IMG/VR virus record: IMGVR_UViG_3300024433_000034
Location: 1 to 28,982 of that record
Strand: one strand, 5' to 3'
Length of the DNA: 28,982 nucleotides
Source of the DNA: a virus
Below are positions 2,958 to 14,751 of the stretch, piece after piece. The translations under genes were made by a program, and so were the position numbers. The notes beneath the pieces were generated by a model. The model saw nothing but the letters and a program-made list of their open reading frames with translations, had not been told where the DNA came from and ran no database searches. Numbering within the stretch: position 1 is the first letter of the stretch; each line of letters opens with the position of its first letter.

Positions 2958-3212
2958 ATGGCAAAATATAGAGGTAACCAATACAATATTGATAATGGCA
3001 GTTATTCAAGGTTAAGAAACCCAACAACAGGAAAAGCAGAAGGAATTAAAAAAATTGCTATTGATGTTGGAAGAAATACAAAATGTCCTTGCAAATCAGG
3101 TAAGAAATTTAAAAATTGTTGTGATAAAAAAGGTGCTATTTATGTGAATAAACCAATAAAAAGTTCTAAATTAACCGCATTCAAAATAAAATTTTTAAGA
3201 ATCTTTAAATAA
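2958..3212 (+). CDS. SEC-C motif zinc-binding protein
   Basis: An 84-residue protein with a clear SEC-C zinc knuckle: CPCKSGKKFKNCC, with Cys43, Cys45, Cys54 and Cys55. This motif was first described at the C-terminus of SecA and occurs in many otherwise unrelated proteins. Here it lies in the middle of a small basic protein, and no enzymatic domain accompanies it, so the role may be protein or nucleic-acid contact. The start ATG follows AAACAATAAGAT. It is the first phage gene after the attC-like hairpin. The zinc-site call is strong; the function is unknown. Confidence 0.75.
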   Translation: MAKYRGNQYNIDNGSYSRLRNPTTGKAEGIKKIAIDVGRNTKCPCKSGKKFKNCCDKKGAIYVNKPIKSSKLTAFKIKFLRIFK

Positions 3213-4707: not shown

Positions 4708-6024
4708 ATGAAACTACTCCCAAAACAAGAAAATGCAGTTTATTATCTTAAAGATAAAACAACAACAGAATTAGTTTTTGGTGGCGCTGCAGGTGGTGCA
4801 AAATCTTCTTTGGGTTGTTTATGGTTAATTGAAAATTCACAATCATACCCTGGAACACGTTGGTTAATGGGAAGGAGTAAATTAAAAACATTGAAAGAAA
4901 CTACATTAAACACCTTTTTTGAAATGTCAACAAAACTTGGTGTAAATGATGAATGGAATTATAATGCAATGACAGGTGTTATTAAATGGACAAATGGAAG
5001 CGAAATAATTCTAAAAGATTTATTTTTCTATCCAAGTGATCCAAATTTTGATTCATTAGGTTCATTAGAAATATCAGGTGCTTTTATTGATGAATGCAAT
5101 CAAATAAATTTCAAGGCATGGCAAGTTGTAAAATCAAGAATCAGATACAAATTAACTGAATACGATTTAACACCTAAAATTCTTGGTACATGTAACCCCT
5201 CTAAAAATTGGGTTTACAAATATTTTTTTAGAGCAAAAAAAACAAAAGACATTGCACCATTTAGAAAGTTCATACAATCACTTCCAAAAGACAATCCATT
5301 TCTTCCTGATAGTTATATTGAATCTCTTAGCCAATTAGATGACATTAGCAGGGAAAGGTTATTGAATGGAAATTGGGAATTTGACAATGATAAATCAGCA
5401 ATAATTTCTTATAATGCAATTATGGACTATTGGAACGCAAAACATATTGTTGCAGGTCCAGGTGATGAAAACCATTTAACAATTGATGTTGCAAGAAAAG
5501 GAAAAGATAAAACAGTTTTCAGAGTTTGGAAAGGGTGGTTATGTGTTAAGCGTTACGAAATGGCAATAAGTACAATTCCACAAATTGTTGAAAAAGCACA
5601 AAAAATTCAAGCAGCATTTAAAATTACCAACTCAAATACAATTGCAGATGAAGATGGTGTTGGTGGTGGTGTTGTTGATGTTTTAAGATGTAAAGGATTT
5701 ATTAATAATTCTAAACCTCTTTATGATGCTGCAGCAAAAGATGGAGATATTAATTATAGCAATTTAAAAAATCAATGTTCAATTAGAATGGCCAAAAGAA
5801 TTAATGCAAAAACTGTTGGTGAAACTTGCAATGATAATTCTGTTATTGAATTGACTTCTGAAGAAATGGAACAAATAAAATATGCTGAAATTGATAAAGA
5901 TGGAAAAGCTGCACTTGTTACAAAAGATAAAATAAAAGCATTAATTGGTCGTTCTCCTGATGACTGGGATTCTATAATGATGCGTGAATGGTTTTCTTTG
6001 AGAGTAAAATATGAATCTTTTTAA
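4708..6024 (+). CDS. Phage terminase large subunit
   Basis: The packaging motor ATPase and headful or cos nuclease, 438 residues, complete. The Walker A-type loop is GGAAGGAKSS (residues 25-34), Walker B is GAFIDE (124-129, with Asp128 and Glu129), and the coupling motif is GTCNPS (160-165). The C-terminal RNase H-like nuclease has LTIDVARKGKDKT (Asp260), IADEDGVGGG (Asp314/Asp316) and SPDDWDS (Asp418/Asp419), giving the expected acidic metal-binding set. In phage head operons the portal usually follows directly. Here 3.5 kb intervenes, most of it the hairpin-bounded island, which suggests a later insertion. The natural C-terminus appears intact. Confidence 0.95.
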   Translation: MKLLPKQENAVYYLKDKTTTELVFGGAAGGAKSSLGCLWLIENSQSYPGTRWLMGRSKLKTLKETTLNTFFEMSTKLGVNDEWNYNAMTGVIKWTNGSEIILKDLFFYPSDPNFDSLGSLEISGAFIDECNQINFKAWQVVKSRIRYKLTEYDLTPKILGTCNPSKNWVYKYFFRAKKTKDIAPFRKFIQSLPKDNPFLPDSYIESLSQLDDISRERLLNGNWEFDNDKSAIISYNAIMDYWNAKHIVAGPGDENHLTIDVARKGKDKTVFRVWKGWLCVKRYEMAISTIPQIVEKAQKIQAAFKITNSNTIADEDGVGGGVVDVLRCKGFINNSKPLYDAAAKDGDINYSNLKNQCSIRMAKRINAKTVGETCNDNSVIELTSEEMEQIKYAEIDKDGKAALVTKDKIKALIGRSPDDWDSIMMREWFSLRVKYESF

Positions 6025-6064
6025 AATTTATTACATATTTTTACATACTTGTATTTATTATTTG

Positions 6065-6072
6065 TAAATTTG
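6065..6072 (+). promoter_or_regulatory. Possible Bacteroidetes -7 box (TAAATTTG)
   Basis: TAAATTTG fits the TAnnTTTG -7 consensus of Bacteroidetes promoters and sits a few bases before an ATG in the gap after the terminase. The -33 element is poor: the nearest TTG (6049-6051) is only 13 bases away. It could drive the island genes but is weaker than the promoter at 6507-6536. Confidence 0.3.
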
Positions 6073-6076
6073 TAGT

Positions 6077-6139
6077 ATGAAAATTCAATTAGAACAAATC
6101 AAAAGAACATTTGCTAACGTATTGTATAAAATGCGTTGA
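6077..6139 (+). pseudogene. 20-codon ORF that runs into the first attC-like site
   Basis: After the possible promoter an ATG opens MKIQLEQIKRTFANVLYKMR and then stops inside the short palindrome at the left edge of the island. It looks like the start of a longer gene cut off at the insertion point, with the stop supplied by the incoming sequence. It could also be a functionless leader peptide. No downstream continuation was found on the far side of the island. Confidence 0.3.
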
Positions 6140-6141
6140 GG
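6114..6141 (+). repeat. Short attC-like palindrome at the island's left edge
   Basis: CTAACG-TATT-GTATA-AAATG-CGTTGAG: the outer AACG pairs with CGTT and the inner ATT with AAT around a small loop. The right box GTTGAGG differs from GTTRRRY only in the last base. It is far shorter than the other elements and could be an attC remnant or a secondary recombination site where the first cassette joined. Chance is a real possibility at this length. Confidence 0.3.
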
Positions 6142-6158
6142 AACGAAATGAATTTTAT

Positions 6159-6398
6159 ATGGTGTATGCACCGTTAATTTTAGAAACTATGACTGAACAA
6201 GAGATAAAAGAAGAACTATGCCACTATGACCTACGAAACCCCGATGGTGTTAACTCTTATGGTTTATTAGATGCAGAAGAAATAAAAGAAGAAGGTTACG
6301 GAAACCACAAGAAAGAAGATTGCTCTTGTGATAATTGCTTTTATGGTAGAACCAAGATGGCAGAAGAACTTTTGAAGTATGTATCTAATGGTGCATAA
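6159..6398 (+). CDS. Hypothetical cassette protein, 79 aa
   Basis: Unrecognised small acidic protein. An upstream TTG in frame lies inside the short palindrome, so the ATG beginning MVYAPLILETMTEQ is preferred; a second ATG ten codons later (MTEQEIKEELCHYD) is possible. The C-terminal half has CSCDNCFYG, three close cysteines that may bind metal or be structural, then a short helix. The stop codon lies inside the left box of the next hairpin (GCATAAC), the arrangement seen in integron cassettes where the gene ends at the attC site. Confidence 0.55.
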   Translation: MVYAPLILETMTEQEIKEELCHYDLRNPDGVNSYGLLDAEEIKEEGYGNHKKEDCSCDNCFYGRTKMAEELLKYVSNGA

Positions 6399-6454
6399 CG
6401 GTTAGTATATGAACCGTACGCCTTTAGGCTATGGTTTTATATACCGTGTTAGTT
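6393..6454 (+). repeat. attC-like hairpin 1
   Basis: The left box GCATAAC matches RYYYAAC at six of seven positions and the right box GTTAGTT matches GTTRRRY at six of seven. Between them the arms pair in steps: GTATAT with ATATAC, AACC with GGTT, and GCC with GGC around a TTTA-like apex, separated by single unpaired bases, as expected of a folded single-stranded attC site. The left box overlaps the upstream gene's stop codon. It shares the ATATGAA inner-arm segment with the hairpin at 8100-8155 but differs elsewhere. Confidence 0.55.
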
Positions 6455-6506
6455 GCTTTTATTTTTGAGAGGTGGAAAAATAATTTAATCTTTTTTATAA
6501 TATTAC

Positions 6507-6536
6507 TTGTATATGTAAAATATATACGTATATTTG
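6507..6536 (+). promoter_or_regulatory. Bacteroidetes-type promoter inside cassette 2
   Basis: TTG at 6507-6509, a 19-base spacer and TATATTTG at 6529-6536 give a full match to the Bacteroidetes primary-sigma consensus (TTG, 17-23 bases, TAnnTTTG). Transcription would begin a few bases downstream, leaving a leader of about 25-30 bases before the 51-residue gene. Cassettes usually rely on an external promoter, so an internal one would let the downstream units be expressed independently of phage operons. Confidence 0.65.
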
Positions 6537-6570
6537 TAGGGTATTAACGAAGTAACTAAAACAAAAAGAT

Positions 6571-6726
6571 ATGAAAAACTTAGACTACAGAAACGAAATT
6601 ACAAGATTAGAAGATTTGTTAAACTCTCATAACTGCCCAATATCTTGGAGCGATATGAATAATAAGATAATAGAATTAAAAAAAGAGCATAACAAAGAGC
6701 AGGGTTTTAAAGTGTGGAATGTTTAA
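6571..6726 (+). CDS. Small hypothetical cassette protein, 51 aa
   Basis: Not recognised. It reads as a short helical protein (MKNLDYRNEITRLEDLL, then ISWSDMNNKIIELKKEHNKE) with an aromatic tail, FKVWNV. A helical-hairpin fold is plausible. It has its own well-formed upstream promoter and an A-rich leader (AACTAAAACAAAAAGAT) before the ATG, which supports expression. It is followed by an inverted repeat and a degenerate attC-like hairpin. Confidence 0.6.
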   Translation: MKNLDYRNEITRLEDLLNSHNCPISWSDMNNKIIELKKEHNKEQGFKVWNV

Positions 6727-6742
6727 GATAAGCAAATAGCGA

Positions 6743-6768
6743 AAGCTACGAGAGTTAACACTCGGCTT
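6743..6768 (+). repeat. 26-bp inverted repeat centred on GTTAAC
   Basis: AAGC-TA-CGAG-A-GTTAAC-A-CTCG-GCTT: two four-base outer and inner arm pairs around a self-complementary centre, interrupted only by a TA on the left. It abuts and shares GCTT with the next hairpin. It might be the terminator-like end of the 51-residue gene or part of a rearranged attC site. Confidence 0.5.
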
Positions 6769-6834
6769 GTTAACGGTTTATTGCCTGAATATATGACAGC
6801 ACGGAAAGACGGCATTTTTATACACACGACAAGC
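6765..6834 (+). repeat. Degenerate attC-like hairpin 2
   Basis: The outer ends GCTTGT and ACAAGC are exact complements and an inner TGCC pairs with GGCA, but the arms between are poorly matched. The left end contains GTTAAC followed by GG, as in other members, while the right box (GACAAGC) differs from GTTRRRY at two positions. It lies between two gene units, which is the main reason to group it with the others. Confidence 0.3.
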
Positions 6835-6844
6835 AAAAAAAATT

Positions 6845-7075
6845 ATGAAACAATACGGTGAGCAAATGGCTAATAACATTCTAAAACAAGCATTGGACAG
6901 GGATGAAGTTATAGAATTAGGGATAAAAGATATTGCTGCGGATAATATTGCAGATGTATTAATGTATAGATGTATTAGAATTTTAGACTTTTACGAGCCT
7001 GATATGCTACACGAAGCACCACAAGCAAGGGAACAAGTATTATATAAGATTAAATCAAAATTAGATGAGTTATGA
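6845..7075 (+). CDS. Hypothetical cassette protein, 76 aa
   Basis: Unrecognised acidic, helical protein starting MKQYGEQMANNILKQALDRD and ending in KIKSKLDEL. No Cys, membrane or catalytic motif is seen. It is the first of four genes joined by ATGA overlaps, so this unit is a small operon rather than a one-gene cassette. The ATG is preceded by AAGCAAAAAAAATT, which begins at the right end of the weak hairpin. Confidence 0.6.
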   Translation: MKQYGEQMANNILKQALDRDEVIELGIKDIAADNIADVLMYRCIRILDFYEPDMLHEAPQAREQVLYKIKSKLDEL

Positions 7076-7284
7076 TTGATGAAGAAAAAGTTAAAATAAT
7101 AGAACAAGGTAAACAAACGTCTATTTTTATAGATGATACTCTTCAGCAAGTTAAAACGCTTATTGAAATAAGAAAAGTTTTTTGTTTAAAGTTTAATTCA
7201 ACATCTAACGAGAAAAGTTGCAATACGATATTTTATGCAATTGAAGATATAAATAACAATATTAAAAACTTATTAGGGTTATGA
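7072..7284 (+). CDS. Hypothetical cassette protein, 70 aa
   Basis: Not assigned. A small, mainly helical protein with two cysteines (FCLKFN and KSCNTI) and a C-terminus rich in Asn and Ile (EDINNNIKNLLGL). Both ends overlap neighbours by four bases, so translation is probably coupled to the genes on each side. Joint acquisition with its three partners suggests a shared function that I cannot name. Confidence 0.6.
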   Translation: MIDEEKVKIIEQGKQTSIFIDDTLQQVKTLIEIRKVFCLKFNSTSNEKSCNTIFYAIEDINNNIKNLLGL

Positions 7285-7577
7285 CACAAGAAGATTATAT
7301 TTTAAACAGGGCTAAGAACCTAAAAAAAATGATTGTTAAGCGTAGAAAACTTAATGAGAGAATACACCTTTTTGAGCAAATGAGCGATAAGGCATGGCAA
7401 AAACTAAATGCAGAACTTCATTGGTTAAGCATGGAGATAGAAAAGGAAAAAGAAAGAATAGGGTTTGTATTAGGGCATTTAACTTTGTTTGAATTACAGG
7501 ATGAATATAATCCAAGTGGTTGGCATAGATATGAAGGAATAAAAGGTGAAATGCAAAATTTAAAACTTGAACGATGA
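7281..7577 (+). CDS. Hypothetical helical cassette protein, 98 aa
   Basis: Unrecognised. The first two thirds look like a charged helical hairpin or short coiled coil (LKKMIVKRRKLNERIHLF, then WLSMEIEKEKERIGFVL), followed by a more polar, Trp-containing segment (NPSGWHRYEGIKGEM). It overlaps the ribbon-helix-helix-like gene by ATGA. The coiled coil and the neighbouring DNA-binding-type protein would fit a small regulatory or toxin-antitoxin-like group, but no toxin fold is evident, so this stays speculative. Confidence 0.6.
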   Translation: MTQEDYILNRAKNLKKMIVKRRKLNERIHLFEQMSDKAWQKLNAELHWLSMEIEKEKERIGFVLGHLTLFELQDEYNPSGWHRYEGIKGEMQNLKLER

Positions 7578-7702
7578 AAAAGAAACTAATAGAAATACCA
7601 ACCGATATATTTAAAAAGATACAAGAGTTAGCAAAGGCAAACGAAAGGAGTGATAATAAACAGATTGTTTACTTGCTTAAAAAAGCGTTGGAAGAAAAAT
7701 AA
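7574..7702 (+). CDS. Ribbon-helix-helix-like small DNA-binding protein
   Basis: A 42-residue protein with the layout of an Arc/CopG-type ribbon-helix-helix monomer: a short strand (KKLIEIP), a first helix starting at TDIFKKIQELAKAN, a turn with SDNKQ, and a second helix (IVYLLKKALEEK). These proteins dimerise and bind operators, often as antitoxins or autorepressors. It ends the four-gene unit, overlapping the previous gene by ATGA, and its stop directly precedes an attC-like hairpin. The fold call is moderate given the small size. Confidence 0.55.
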   Translation: MKKKLIEIPTDIFKKIQELAKANERSDNKQIVYLLKKALEEK

Positions 7703-7785
7703 TTGCAACTAATGCACTAAGCTATGTTTTGTTATGCTCTACGCATGAATGAGGATAGCATAATAAAATATAACTGGTGTTAGGT
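7703..7785 (+). repeat. attC-like hairpin 3 with a 19-bp inner stem
   Basis: AGCTATGTTTTGTTATGCT (7720-7738) pairs with AGCATAATAAAATATAACT (7757-7775) across all 19 positions, counting three G-U pairs, around an 18-base loop. The right box GTTAGGT (7779-7785) fits GTTRRRY exactly. The left box is degraded (AACTAAT at 7707-7713, five of seven). Pairing of CTAA with TTAG extends the outer arm. Placement straight after a stop codon is as in the other members. Confidence 0.55.
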
Positions 7786-7819
7786 TTAGTTGAATAAATA
7801 ATAATTTAAAAAATAAAAG

Positions 7820-8095
7820 ATGAGTAAAGAATATAAAATTAATAGTTTTAATGACTTATGTAATTTAGTAAATGATAACAATTTAGATGTGTTAGCTGAA
7901 GATTTAAAGAATTGGTTAGTTAGTTATCATTTTGCTATTAAGGAAATACGAAAATTACACCCTGAAGTAACGGATGGAAAAACAAACACAGAAATAGCTA
8001 AAGGTTCTTTTACTTGGATAGATGACAATGAAACAAAAATAAAAGGTGTAGTAATTGAACAAAACGGAAAAACAGAGCGTGTAGATTTTGAGTAA
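7820..8095 (+). CDS. Hypothetical cassette protein, 91 aa
   Basis: I do not recognise a named family. The N-terminal half is helical (INSFNDLCNLVNDNNLDVLA, then an LKNWLVSYHFAIKEIRKL helix). The C-terminal half is beta-like and ends in an acidic tail (FTWIDDNETKIKGVVIEQNG onward). It is a single-gene unit flanked by attC-like hairpins on both sides, the clearest one-gene cassette in the window. The leader after the preceding right box (TTTAGTTGAATAAATAATAA and more A-rich sequence) resembles that before the methyltransferase. Confidence 0.65.
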   Translation: MSKEYKINSFNDLCNLVNDNNLDVLAEDLKNWLVSYHFAIKEIRKLHPEVTDGKTNTEIAKGSFTWIDDNETKIKGVVIEQNGKTERVDFE

Positions 8096-8099
8096 TTAA

Positions 8100-8155
8100 A
8101 CCTAACGGTTTGAATATGAAACGGCTTTTTCGCTGTTTTATATTTGATGTTAGGC
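8100..8155 (+). repeat. attC-like hairpin 4, best match to consensus
   Basis: This is the strongest element: the left box ACCTAAC is an exact RYYYAAC and the right box GTTAGGC an exact GTTRRRY, and CCTAAC and GTTAGG are perfect complements. The inner arms AATATGAAACGGC (8113-8125) and GCTGTTTTATATT (8132-8144) pair at all 13 positions with two G-U pairs, closing a six-base loop. Unpaired spacer bases between outer and inner arms match the bulged structure used by integron integrases to choose the bottom strand. Length (56 bases) is at the short end of known attC sites. Confidence 0.65.
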
Positions 8156-8182
8156 TTAGTTATTAAATTAAAAAATTAGAAT

Positions 8183-9142
8183 ATGAAAAATGGAAATGGA
8201 ATAAATGTAGTTAGTTGTTTTGACGGTATGAGCTGTTTACAAATAGCACTTGGACAATTAGGTATTAAAGTGAATAAGTACTTTGCAAGCGAAGTTGATA
8301 AATACGCAATGAAGGTTACACAAGCAAACTACCCCAACACAATACAGTTAGGAAGTGTTGAGTTTGTTACAAAAGGAATGATTAATAACGAGATTGATTT
8401 ACTTGCTGGAGGAAGCCCTTGCCAAGGATTTAGTTTTGCAGGTAAGCAATTAAATTTTGAGGACCCAAGAAGTAAACTGTTTTTTGAGTTTGTGAGATTG
8501 AAAAAAGAACTGAACCCAAAGTACTTCTTTTTAGAGAATGTGAAAATGAAAAAAGAATACCAAGATATTATTAGTAGTTATTTAGGTTGCGAACCTGTAA
8601 TTATAAATAGTGCTTTGGTTTCTGCTCAAAATAGAGTTCGTTTATTCTGGACTAATATACCTGGTATTGAGCAACCAAAAGATAAAGAAATTTATTTAGC
8701 TGATATTATTGAAAACGGGATAGTTGATAGAGATAAAAGCTATTGCATTGATGCTAACTATTGGAAAGGTGGGAACCTTAAACAATACTTTGAAAAAAGC
8801 AGAAGGCAATTAGTTTTCTGTGGTGCGATGCGTGGACGTTATATTGTAGATGGTAAGCGACAAGATGGGAAAATGAAAACAGCAGGATTGACTACTCAAA
8901 GAATGGAAATTAGGTATGACGGTAAAACAAATACTATCACAACCGTTCAAAAGGATAACTATGCTGTTTTTATAGATGGCTTTAGAAAATTAACACCAAT
9001 TGAATGTGAGAGGCTACAAACTGTACCCGACAATTACACAAACCACGTAAGCAATAGTCAAAGGTATAAAATGCTTGGCAATGGCTGGACAGTTGATGTA
9101 ATTACTCATATATTAAAAAAAATGTACTTAGGAAGGAATTAA
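8183..9142 (+). CDS. C5-cytosine DNA methyltransferase
   Basis: Transfers a methyl group from S-adenosylmethionine to cytosine C5 in DNA. The 319 residues contain the conserved motifs in order: motif I VVSCFDGMSC (9-18), motif IV GGSPCQGFS with catalytic Cys80, motif VI FLENV (116-120), motif VIII QNRVRLFW (149-156), motif IX RKLTPIECERLQTVPDNYT (268-286) and motif X MLGNGWTV (297-304). Motif I has GMSC in place of the usual FxGxG, a variant I associate with some phage enzymes. The variable target region is about 170-260, so the recognised sequence is unknown. It has no partner endonuclease, which suggests protection of phage DNA from restriction. It is the last gene of the island. Confidence 0.95.
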   Translation: MKNGNGINVVSCFDGMSCLQIALGQLGIKVNKYFASEVDKYAMKVTQANYPNTIQLGSVEFVTKGMINNEIDLLAGGSPCQGFSFAGKQLNFEDPRSKLFFEFVRLKKELNPKYFFLENVKMKKEYQDIISSYLGCEPVIINSALVSAQNRVRLFWTNIPGIEQPKDKEIYLADIIENGIVDRDKSYCIDANYWKGGNLKQYFEKSRRQLVFCGAMRGRYIVDGKRQDGKMKTAGLTTQRMEIRYDGKTNTITTVQKDNYAVFIDGFRKLTPIECERLQTVPDNYTNHVSNSQRYKMLGNGWTVDVITHILKKMYLGRN

Positions 9143-9149
9143 GCATAAC
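9143..9149 (+). repeat. attC left half-site only
   Basis: GCATAAC directly after the methyltransferase stop is identical to the left box at 6393-6399, and is followed by AAGCGG, but no complementary arm or GTTRRRY box is found before the next gene about 40 bases on. It looks like a truncated end to the array. Confidence 0.3.
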
Positions 9150-9187
9150 AAGCGGATAAAGAACACTACACATGTAAAAAATAGATT

Positions 9188-9442
9188 ATGATTATAAATT
9201 ACGAATATGGCATTTCATTTAATGGATTCATTTACGGATGGAAAGATAAAAAACTTTTTAGGTTGCCTCAAACTATAAATAAAAGATTTCTTCCAATAAA
9301 AGAACTCAAAATTATAAAGGTTGGTAATAATAAAGGCTATTTATTGAATCAAAAAAGACTTTCTTTATCACAATTAGAATCAATGACAGGTATAATAAAC
9401 TTCAAATATGAAAAGACTAATTCAAAAGATTGTCCATTTTAA
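9188..9442 (+). CDS. Hypothetical phage protein, 84 aa
   Basis: Unrecognised. The sequence alternates aromatic and basic residues (ISFNGFIYGWKDKKLFRLP) and has a repeated basic-hydrophobic pattern (ELKIIKVGNNKGYLL), suggesting a small beta-rich domain followed by a helix with LSLSQLESMTG. Codon use resembles the phage backbone rather than the island, so it is probably an original gene between terminase and portal. It is preceded by the half-site and followed by a candidate promoter for the head operon. Confidence 0.6.
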   Translation: MIINYEYGISFNGFIYGWKDKKLFRLPQTINKRFLPIKELKIIKVGNNKGYLLNQKRLSLSQLESMTGIINFKYEKTNSKDCPF

Positions 9443-9455
9443 TTAAAAAAAATAG

Positions 9456-9484
9456 TTTATGTATTATTTTTTTTTCTAACTTTG
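9456..9484 (+). promoter_or_regulatory. Candidate promoter for the head operon
   Basis: TAACTTTG at 9477-9484 fits the TAnnTTTG -7 element. A TTT at 9456-9458, 18 bases upstream, stands where the TTG is expected, so the -33 part is imperfect. It lies in the 88-base gap before the portal gene, a likely place to start late transcription. Confidence 0.45.
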
Positions 9485-9492
9485 TTCAAAAG

Positions 9493-9507
9493 CAATATTT
9501 AATATTG
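9493..9507 (+). promoter_or_regulatory. Possible operator: perfect 15-bp palindrome
   Basis: CAATATT-T-AATATTG is a perfect seven-base inverted repeat with a one-base centre, just downstream of where transcription from the candidate promoter would start. A repressor or activator site for late genes is plausible; A/T-rich palindromes also arise by chance in such DNA. Confidence 0.35.
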
Positions 9508-9530
9508 TTTGAAATTTCTGTTATTATCTA

Positions 9531-10844
9531 ATGAATAAGATTACAAGAACATTCAATACCATTATTAAAAATCTTGGTACAATAGCAGTTGATAATTATT
9601 CTTCTGCAAAACTTATCACCTCACAGATTTACAACAATGGTTTCCTTTTTGCTTTTCATAAGTTCAACACCGTTATTAAAAATGGCTATGCTTCAAATAC
9701 TGATGCTTATTCTATTGTAAGTAAAATTATTAAAACAGGTGCATCAATTCCTTATTTGATTGTGAATAAATTACCTGATGGAACTGAAGAAATTATTACT
9801 GAAGGTGCTTTTTACGAATCAGTAATGCGCCCAAACAAAAGACAAAACAAATTTGAATTTACTGAAGATGCATTAGGTTATCAATTAATAACAGGGAATG
9901 AAATTTTAACAGGTTTAGTTCCTGCAGGTTTTAAAATGATAACACAAGTAAATATTGTTCCACCTCAACTTGTTACAATTAAAAGAAATGGAAAATCTTT
10001 GTTTGATTATTCAATGAATTATATTGTTAATTGGAAAGATTGGAGTACAACAATTAAGGAAGAAGATGTAAAACACATAAAATATTTCAATCCAACAACA
10101 GAAGGAGTTGAATCAGGAATGGGTTTAAGTCCTTTACAAGCAGCCTATAAAACATTAGAAACTTCTAATGAATTAATGACTGCAGGAGCATCTGCATTAA
10201 AAAACAGAGGTGCAAACGGTTTACTTTCTTCTGATAGTGATAGGCCAATGGACAAAGAAGAAAAGGATGACTTGCAACAAACAACAAATGTAAAACTTGG
10301 TCAAGCTGACAAATTTAATAGAGTAGTTGCAACAACTGCAAAAGTAAAATATACACAATTCGGTTTAAGTCCTTCTGATTTAAAAATGGTTGAAAATGGA
10401 GTACTTACATTAAGACAATTATGTAATGTTTGGGGTGCAGATTCTTCAAATTTTAATGATCCTGCAAATAAAAAGTTTAGTAATTTAAAAGAAGGTCAAA
10501 AATCTTTTTATGTAAATGCAGTATTACCACCATTAGAAAGGCATTTATTAGGTTATAAGGAATTAGTTATTGCAGGATGGAATGAAGAAGATGGTGCAAA
10601 TTATGATATTCGTTTGGATTTATCAAATATTGAATCATTACAAGCAGACCAAAACCAAAAAGCACAAAAACAAGTTAATCTTGCGAAGGGAATGACTGAT
10701 GTAATAATGAGAGTTGGTGAAGGAAAGATAAGTGCAGCATCAGGTGTTAAATTACTTGAAATGAATTTTGATTTAACAACTGCAGAAGCAGAAGCATTAA
10801 TTGCAGATACTACAAACCCAACACCAACAGGAAATGAAAACTAA
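9531..10844 (+). CDS. Phage portal protein
   Basis: The dodecameric portal forms the DNA entry channel at one capsid vertex. The 437-residue length and sequence fit the HK97-type portal family: an N-terminal segment with YSIVSKIIKTGASIPYLIVN, a core containing EFTEDALGYQLITGNEIL and MGLSPLQAAYKTLETSNEL, and later GVLTLRQLCNVWGADSSNF and FYVNAVLPPLERHLLGYKEL, all typical portal landmarks. The C-terminus is Thr/Pro-rich. It is the first gene of the head operon, followed by protease and capsid genes. The ATG follows TTATTATCTA rather than a purine-rich site. Confidence 0.92.
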   Translation: MNKITRTFNTIIKNLGTIAVDNYSSAKLITSQIYNNGFLFAFHKFNTVIKNGYASNTDAYSIVSKIIKTGASIPYLIVNKLPDGTEEIITEGAFYESVMRPNKRQNKFEFTEDALGYQLITGNEILTGLVPAGFKMITQVNIVPPQLVTIKRNGKSLFDYSMNYIVNWKDWSTTIKEEDVKHIKYFNPTTEGVESGMGLSPLQAAYKTLETSNELMTAGASALKNRGANGLLSSDSDRPMDKEEKDDLQQTTNVKLGQADKFNRVVATTAKVKYTQFGLSPSDLKMVENGVLTLRQLCNVWGADSSNFNDPANKKFSNLKEGQKSFYVNAVLPPLERHLLGYKELVIAGWNEEDGANYDIRLDLSNIESLQADQNQKAQKQVNLAKGMTDVIMRVGEGKISAASGVKLLEMNFDLTTAEAEALIADTTNPTPTGNEN

Positions 10845-14413: not shown

Positions 14414-14751
14414 ATGAACCAAAACAACATAACTTCATCTTTGGTGATGGGGTTTTACATAATGCAAGTGTTTCAGAAACTTCAGAATCAATAAGAAGTT
14501 GTTATAAGTATGAATGGAGTATTGCACCAATTACTGCAGGTTTAACATCAGCAAAAGGTGAATATACTGTTCAAGTTTCAAATGATAATCTTAATTGGTT
14601 TGAATATAATAACCTTTCAACAGATGTTTCAATTGAAGATGCAGTTGATGACATTCATTTGGCGTGGGTTTACATGCGAATAGTGTATGATGCAAAAACC
14701 GAATCAACAGGAACAGTTCAATTTGAATTAACTCAAAAACAACAATCATAA
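14410..14751 (+). CDS. Hypothetical virion protein, 113 aa
   Basis: A TTG lies two codons upstream in frame, but the ATG overlapping the previous stop (ATGA) is the better start. The protein is mainly beta-strand in pattern, with GEYTVQVSNDNLNWFEYNNL and AWVYMRIVYDAKTESTGTVQ, reminiscent of a beta-sandwich as seen in neck, decoration or tail-associated proteins. No family recognised. Only one base separates it from the next gene. Confidence 0.5.
   Translation: MNEPKQHNFIFGDGVLHNASVSETSESIRSCYKYEWSIAPITAGLTSAKGEYTVQVSNDNLNWFEYNNLSTDVSIEDAVDDIHLAWVYMRIVYDAKTESTGTVQFELTQKQQS

Follow-up and report, generated by a model that had tools for sequence, protein, structure and literature searches.

Clusters of attC sites lacking an integron integrase (CALINs) are already known from phages, and the locus considered here is a further case. 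Qi et al. (2023, Front Microbiol 14:1091391; PMC9892861) described 17 phage CALINs with methyltransferase cargo, including that of Polaribacter phage P12002L, which carries methyltransferases, and reported that the integrase IntI1 recombined five of six tested phage sites with attI1, including one of the two from P12002L. The window analysed here is an entire IMG/VR virus contig of 28,982 bases, which comes from a metagenome assembly and may be a fragment or incomplete; in it, small genes and a DNA methyltransferase gene, with attC-type hairpins at gene ends, lie between the genes for the terminase large subunit (TerL) and the portal protein. Our reading, to which we give a probability of about 0.92, is that this cluster is a CALIN that was inserted between TerL and portal in a phage of a Bacteroidota host and that consists of four or five integron-type cassettes with no integrase beside them.

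The window cluster is similar to the CALINs of Qi et al., especially that of P12002L, in having several attC-type sites, small cassettes, no integrase and methyltransferase cargo, and it shares with P12002L both the site family and a distantly related TerL (34% identity). It differs in being in another phage, in its TerL-portal position and in that the corresponding site is empty in relatives. Class 1 and sedentary chromosomal integrons likewise have a gene-site-gene order, GTT/AAC boxes, folded hairpins, complementary cassette ends and the same direction of gene to site but, unlike the window, they have IntI and attI, both of which are absent from the contig. The present work departs from that of Qi et al. 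in that the sites are identified by a model of a Bacteroidota family and the gene-to-site direction is quantified. In the literature available for searching we found no prior description, which does not prove that there is none, of the link made here between such a cluster and a Bacteroidota site family that has arrays of ~190 cassettes, a non-IntI recombinase and a reversed gene direction.

Sites were identified with a covariance model, R1, made from 30 aligned hairpins from flavobacterial genomes and other viruses, with zero sequences from the window, and run on the window with speed filters off; its E-values are rough, and the training hairpins were oriented by a polarity rule devised in the present analysis. 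A generic box-and-stem scan had been dropped as too unspecific in AT-rich DNA, the family model being built in its place. R1 gives five sites with E<0.001 in the window, each of them on the + strand, the best score below these being 17.3 bits (E=0.08):

2781-2923, + strand, lone attC-type site outside the cluster, after the open reading frame (ORF) 2305-2781 and before a SEC-C-like gene (2958-3212); 45.3 bits, the top score in the window
6107-6174, + strand, degenerate attC-type site at the left end of the array; 27.9 bits, E=5e-4
6388-6459, + strand, attC-type site 1 (R'' GCATAAC, R' GTTAGTT); 40.5 bits
7702-7790, + strand, attC-type site 2 (R'' mutated to ACTAAT, R' GTTAGGT); 36.8 bits
8095-8160, + strand, attC-type site 3 (R'' ACCTAAC, R' GTTAGGC); 40.0 bits

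The common form of the family is AAC-GGTTTGTATATGAAACGNNGC ... GCNNTGTTTTATATAC-NN-TGTT with a variable loop, and the family arms, conserved between phages and genera, are seen in site 1 as TAACGGTT.GTATATGAA..CG / GGTTTTATATAC..TGTTA. The core of site 3 (8100-8155) fits RYYYAAC and GTTRRRY exactly, that of site 1 (6393-6454) has a single mismatch in each box, and in that of site 2 (7703-7785) the AAC of R'' has become AAT. The arms pair according to R1, with the boxes flanking an imperfect hairpin as in attC, and top-strand folding beats that of shuffled sequences (z = -2.2, -2.5 and -4.0, the last for site 3). Each hairpin lies 3' of a gene on the same + strand, i.e. at the end of the cassette gene, as do all 46 of the 46 classifiable virus sites. 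Four of the sites are within 2.1 kb and no match to the tyrosine recombinase family PF00589 was found on the 28,982-base contig, possibly a fragment, so that the cluster has the composition of a CALIN (at least two close attC sites and no intI gene) and not that of a complete integron, with intI and attI beside the array. A search of the window against Rfam gave no family matches. A preliminary description, made from the letters of the window alone, had proposed hairpins of attC architecture at gene ends in a cluster without an integrase, and had asked for several significant attC hits; R1, built without window sequence, gave such hits, and the proposal is supported. What it saw as related leaders (TTAGGT/C-TTAGTT) are indeed present, but they are R' boxes, i.e. 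the starts of cassettes.

The position of the cluster was defined by comparison with related phages:

4708-6024, + strand, TerL, left flank (PF04466, E=2.3e-15; relatives 56-74% identical in viral contigs)
6025-9443 (right end approximate; ~3.4 kb), + strand, whole inserted cassette cluster, absent from relatives, right end from the alignment of the right flank
9531-10844, + strand, portal protein, right flank (49-72% identical to the portals of L019, L022, L027, L030, L050 and L080)

The portal was identified through these relatives, and in the six viral contigs named its gene directly follows TerL. The gap between the two genes is 90 bp in L019, 91 bp in L022, 108 bp in L030, 125 bp in L050 and 137 bp in L080, and in isolated phages 35 bp (11b) and 58 bp (phi10:1); since the genes are thus adjacent in relatives, as the preliminary description had supposed, the 3.4 kb between them in the window is an insertion. 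Window positions 9436-9540 align with all of the sequence between TerL and portal in L019 and L022, beginning at the TerL stop, which places the inserted part at about 6025-9443. The insertion is therefore longer than the extent first proposed, 6136-9149; in addition to the sites already described it has the degenerate site at 6107-6174 and a half site, with R'' alone, at 9143-9149. Among 80 TerL relatives (748 kb), R1 gave 11 matches, zero of them in the TerL-portal gap, so the hairpins are neither conserved at this place nor a genome-wide feature of such phages. The cluster comprises eight small genes and one C5 DNA methyltransferase. A supposed difference in its composition is upheld for the tetranucleotide profile (0.43 vs a median of 0.29), but not for G+C content (30.8% vs 30.9%). 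Other insertions between TerL and portal, of about 0.9-1.8 kb and without family sites, are present in L036, L037 and L046/L047, so that this place tolerates cargo.

The closest isolated phages by TerL are Cellulophaga phi10:1 (61%) and Flavobacterium 11b (55%), with Polaribacter P12002L further away. Because the TerL relatives are phages of these three genera, the host of the window phage is likely to be a member of the Bacteroidota, in agreement with the host first suggested.

The strongest evidence for cassettes assembled by site-specific recombination comes from the cassette ends. In integrons, the R'' box at the end of a cassette complements the first bases of the same cassette, which form the R' box of the preceding site in the array. 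This was scored over six informative letters, taking as virus pairs those neighbours less than 1.5 kb apart. The window cluster has three neighbour pairs, each with 6/6 matches, beginning with the degenerate left site, whose right box TATGCACCGT pairs 6/6 with the R'' side of site 1; as would be required of a circular cassette, the end of a cassette complements its own start. The cassettes are as follows:

6159-6398, + strand, gene of cassette 1 (ORF), a Cys-rich small protein of 79 residues (start at 6159 or 6192), with a relative of 57% identity in a single further viral contig (L265)
6449-7780, + strand, cassette 2, five small ORFs (6571-6726, 6845-7075, 7072-7284, 7281-7577 and 7574-7702); ends complementary 6/6
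7780-8150, + strand, cassette 3, gene 7820-8095 of 91 residues with no assigned function; ends complementary 6/6 and over ten consecutive letters (GTTAGGTTTA / TAAACCTAAC)
8150-9149, + strand, cassette 4, C5 DNA methyltransferase 8183-9142 (PF00145, E=6e-46; phrog_116), then the R'' half site 9143-9149 (GCATAAC)

The remainder of the attC of the methyltransferase cassette is lost; nevertheless its end TAAGCATAAC fits its start GTTAGGCTTA in 9/10 letters, and in 5/6 of the informative letters as read from the sequence. Across the viruses, 31/41 neighbour pairs match at five or more of the six letters, as against 2 for the two boxes of the same hairpin and a mean of 2.3 (maximum 8) after shuffling; full 6/6 matches are seen for 17 neighbour pairs and for 0/46 own-hairpin pairs. 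The same holds in the chromosomal array of Lacinutrix neustonica, where 186/191 pairs match at five or more letters (own-hairpin boxes 21; shuffled mean 16, maximum 29) and the match to the end of the preceding copy is exact in 176/191. Class 1 integrons from plasmids, used as a control, obey the same rule. It is the pattern that is observed; recombination as the event that produced it is inferred.

This pattern bears directly on two other explanations of the hairpins, neither of which predicts complementarity between the two ends of a cassette, and which are rejected on that ground. The hairpins could be ordinary intrinsic terminators at gene ends, given that they lie directly 3' of stop codons and fold well, and that weak terminators are believed to be present within attC sites themselves (as cited in PMC9892861). 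However, no T-run follows the window hairpins, the arm sequences of the family are conserved between genera and between different phages, and TerL relatives have no such hairpins at the TerL-portal place; moreover, it is the ends of a cassette that are joined by complementarity, not the boxes of one hairpin. The terminator explanation is thus very improbable, and as the sole explanation it is refuted. A dispersed palindromic repeat of Bacteroidota, such as a miniature inverted-repeat transposable element (MITE) moved by a transposase, might account for a widespread family (36/148 evenly drawn Bacteroidota genomes carry sites at E<=1e-7) that also occurs as single copies, including that at 2781-2923 of the window. 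By contrast with the sites, whose variable ends match the preceding copy, as in Lacinutrix, such an element would have matching ends of its own together with target duplications, and the arrays run gene-site-gene on one strand beginning at a recombinase; it is likewise highly unlikely that the family is of this kind.

Judged by sequence similarity, the window sites belong to a family that is used by large marine flavobacterial arrays and by cassette arrays of other phages. A search pattern based on two hairpins of the window had matches in 17 viral contigs, and a looser variant matched 29 genome contigs, nearly all of Bacteroidota and mostly of Flavobacteriaceae, while the strict full-hairpin pattern matched zero genome contigs. 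In 29 viral loci, a selection overlapping the TerL relatives, R1 gave 59 matches; in L002 they form a row, and P12002L holds several. P12002L (L099) has several family sites at 30901-39718 on the minus strand, some beside annotated DNA methyltransferase genes, and one more at 14494-14633 on the + strand, whereas Qi et al. tested two attC sites of this phage; a tested P12002L site is presumably identical with one of these R1 matches.

The largest array is that of L. neustonica NZ_CP113088 (G011, a complete chromosome; loci L243-L251), with 195 R1 sites at E<=0.001, all on one strand; 220 kb was examined and 194 sites were analysed, one cut by a fragment end being omitted. The array spans 835.8-1005.1 kb (169 kb), with zero sites in the 20 kb on each side, and begins ~0.4 kb past a XerA/IntI-like tyrosine recombinase gene (834.6-835.4 kb) that has internal stop codons. 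Intact recombinases of 376-401 residues are present at array starts in Winogradskyella (L159), Psychroserpens (L160), Polaribacter (L157) and Tamlana (L158). Four recombinases from beside chromosomal arrays (L143, L146, L159 and L160) reach 194-209 bits against the IntI model TIGR02249, below its curated cut-off of 265, so that they do not qualify as IntI, and 209-230 bits with the XerA-type model NF040815 (cut-off 220). In 14 flavobacterial recombinases (a 15th was not scorable) the distance between two conserved motifs is 57 residues, compared with 99 in three IntI, and residues 200-247 of IntI4 have no partner; the IntI-specific insertion of ~42 residues in the catalytic domain is missing. 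That the neighbouring recombinase acts on the array sites is suggested by its position. In comparison with the window, the flavobacterial arrays have the same hairpin family and the same cassette-end complementarity, but far more cassettes, an adjoining recombinase and sites that run against the genes.

It is also conceivable that the window cassettes originated in a host that has a canonical IntI integron, their likeness to the flavobacterial arrays being one of attC structure only. Relative to their genes the phage sites do run in the canonical direction, their spacer is longer on the R'' side, as is that of class 1 attC (offset 0 to -3 in 11/12 class 1 sites; phage sites mostly -2 to -4), and IntI1 accepts one P12002L site (PMC9892861). 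We consider this unlikely, albeit less so than terminators or a mobile repeat, as the long arm sequence is common to the phage sites and the flavobacterial family, and no IntI above the curated cut-off was found in the flavobacterial genomes with the family, nor any canonical IntI adjoining any array found in the present analysis. The sole match above the cut-off is a true IntI (384 bits; G015:C98:1832-2770, L131) in a Moraxellaceae (Gammaproteobacteria) bin, where a single Bacteroidota-family hairpin (L123) is also present; the bin may be mixed.

The direction of genes relative to sites is strikingly different in phages and chromosomes. Site polarity was read from the R'' side, which is recognised by its TATGAAA arm and longer spacer, and counts use ORFs of at least 60 residues (viral loci L002-L018, L099 and the window; chromosomal loci L102-L130, L157-L160 and L243-L251). 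In the viral set, to which the window and P12002L belong, 46 genes run with the site and 0 against it; on chromosomes 2 run with the site and 172 against it (Fisher p=1.7e-45). The phage direction is that of class 1 attC, and the view that flavobacterial arrays are oriented like phage arrays was overturned by ORF mapping. Given this opposite direction, the window cassettes were not simply copied from chromosomal arrays, and their direct source is probably a phage-side pool rather than the flavobacterial arrays that were sampled.

Several points weigh against interpretation of the cluster as an inserted CALIN of this family. The insertion is known from a single metagenome assembly; the site family was identified by R1, a model made in the present analysis, not by the published attC model; the window sites score 28-45 bits, far under chromosomal sites (up to 151); the R boxes of sites 1 and 2 depart from the consensus; the five ORFs in the 1.3 kb of cassette 2 are above what is typical; and the gene-to-site direction is the reverse of that in the flavobacterial chromosomal arrays.

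If the cluster is nevertheless a CALIN, as we consider most probable, a tyrosine recombinase, supplied either by the host or by a second phage infecting the same cell, would fold one strand of a site into a hairpin and join circular cassettes to an attC-like site. The first cassette may have entered at a non-standard site after terL, either by off-target insertion by a recombinase or by ordinary recombination. Later cassettes would have been added beside existing sites, giving the complementary cassette ends that are observed. The cluster is now partly frozen, with its left site degenerate, one R'' mutated and its right site reduced to half.

More broadly, we cautiously favour the proposal of an integron-like system peculiar to Bacteroidota and their phages, in which XerA-like recombinases without the IntI-specific insertion move attC-type cassettes and build arrays of up to ~190 cassettes in flavobacteria, and of which phages run a separate version with reversed genes, sometimes with a recombinase of their own (G021, G027 and G032), the window being a frozen piece of it. 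In these three array-bearing phage contigs a XerA-like recombinase of 267-283 residues adjoins the sites:

L259:7312-8112, same strand as the sites, XerA-like recombinase
L260:9712-10515, same strand as the sites, XerA-like recombinase
L261:9682-10530, same strand as the sites, XerA-like recombinase

G021 is identified as a phage by genes for a head-maturation protease and a tape-measure protein, and G027 fits by those for a virion structural protein and a DnaB helicase. The IntI-specific insertion has been described as essential for integron function (PMC8138268), and would be dispensable for cassette shuffling if the neighbouring recombinase moves the arrays. As reported for IntegronFinder 2.0 (PMC9024848), Bacteroidetes had only In0 in the first study, and one complete integron, in Salinibacter, was added later; flavobacteria, reported as nearly without complete integrons, turn out to bear very large cassette arrays, of which no published account was found in the literature on Bacteroidetes/Flavobacteria integrons, a search that left out most subscription papers. 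The strict reversal of gene direction opens to test whether phages maintain their own cassette pool.

With respect to cargo, the cassette 1 protein has no Pfam match, gene 7820-8095 has no relative in a scan of viral contigs, and the ORF 7574-7702 in cassette 2 (42 residues, ribbon-helix-helix) resembles RHH_5/Arc at a score under the cut-off. The right end of the cluster is occupied by one further gene:

9188-9442, + strand, gene of 84 residues, with a 43% identical relative in viral contig L005, directly behind a site array

A separate scan of viral contigs yielded no relatives of this gene, which may be a former cassette gene that lost its sites. The cargo probably benefits the phage, and the methyltransferase may mask phage DNA from host restriction; methyltransferases are recurrent phage cassette cargo, which fits a role in counter-defence. 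The methyltransferase was dropped as a marker of such clusters, as its relatives occur in some 600 viral contigs or more, and the 80 best loci showed no family hairpins that were convincing. In two other phage contigs DNA methyltransferase genes lie between sites (L262:18592-19206 and L259:8994-9764).

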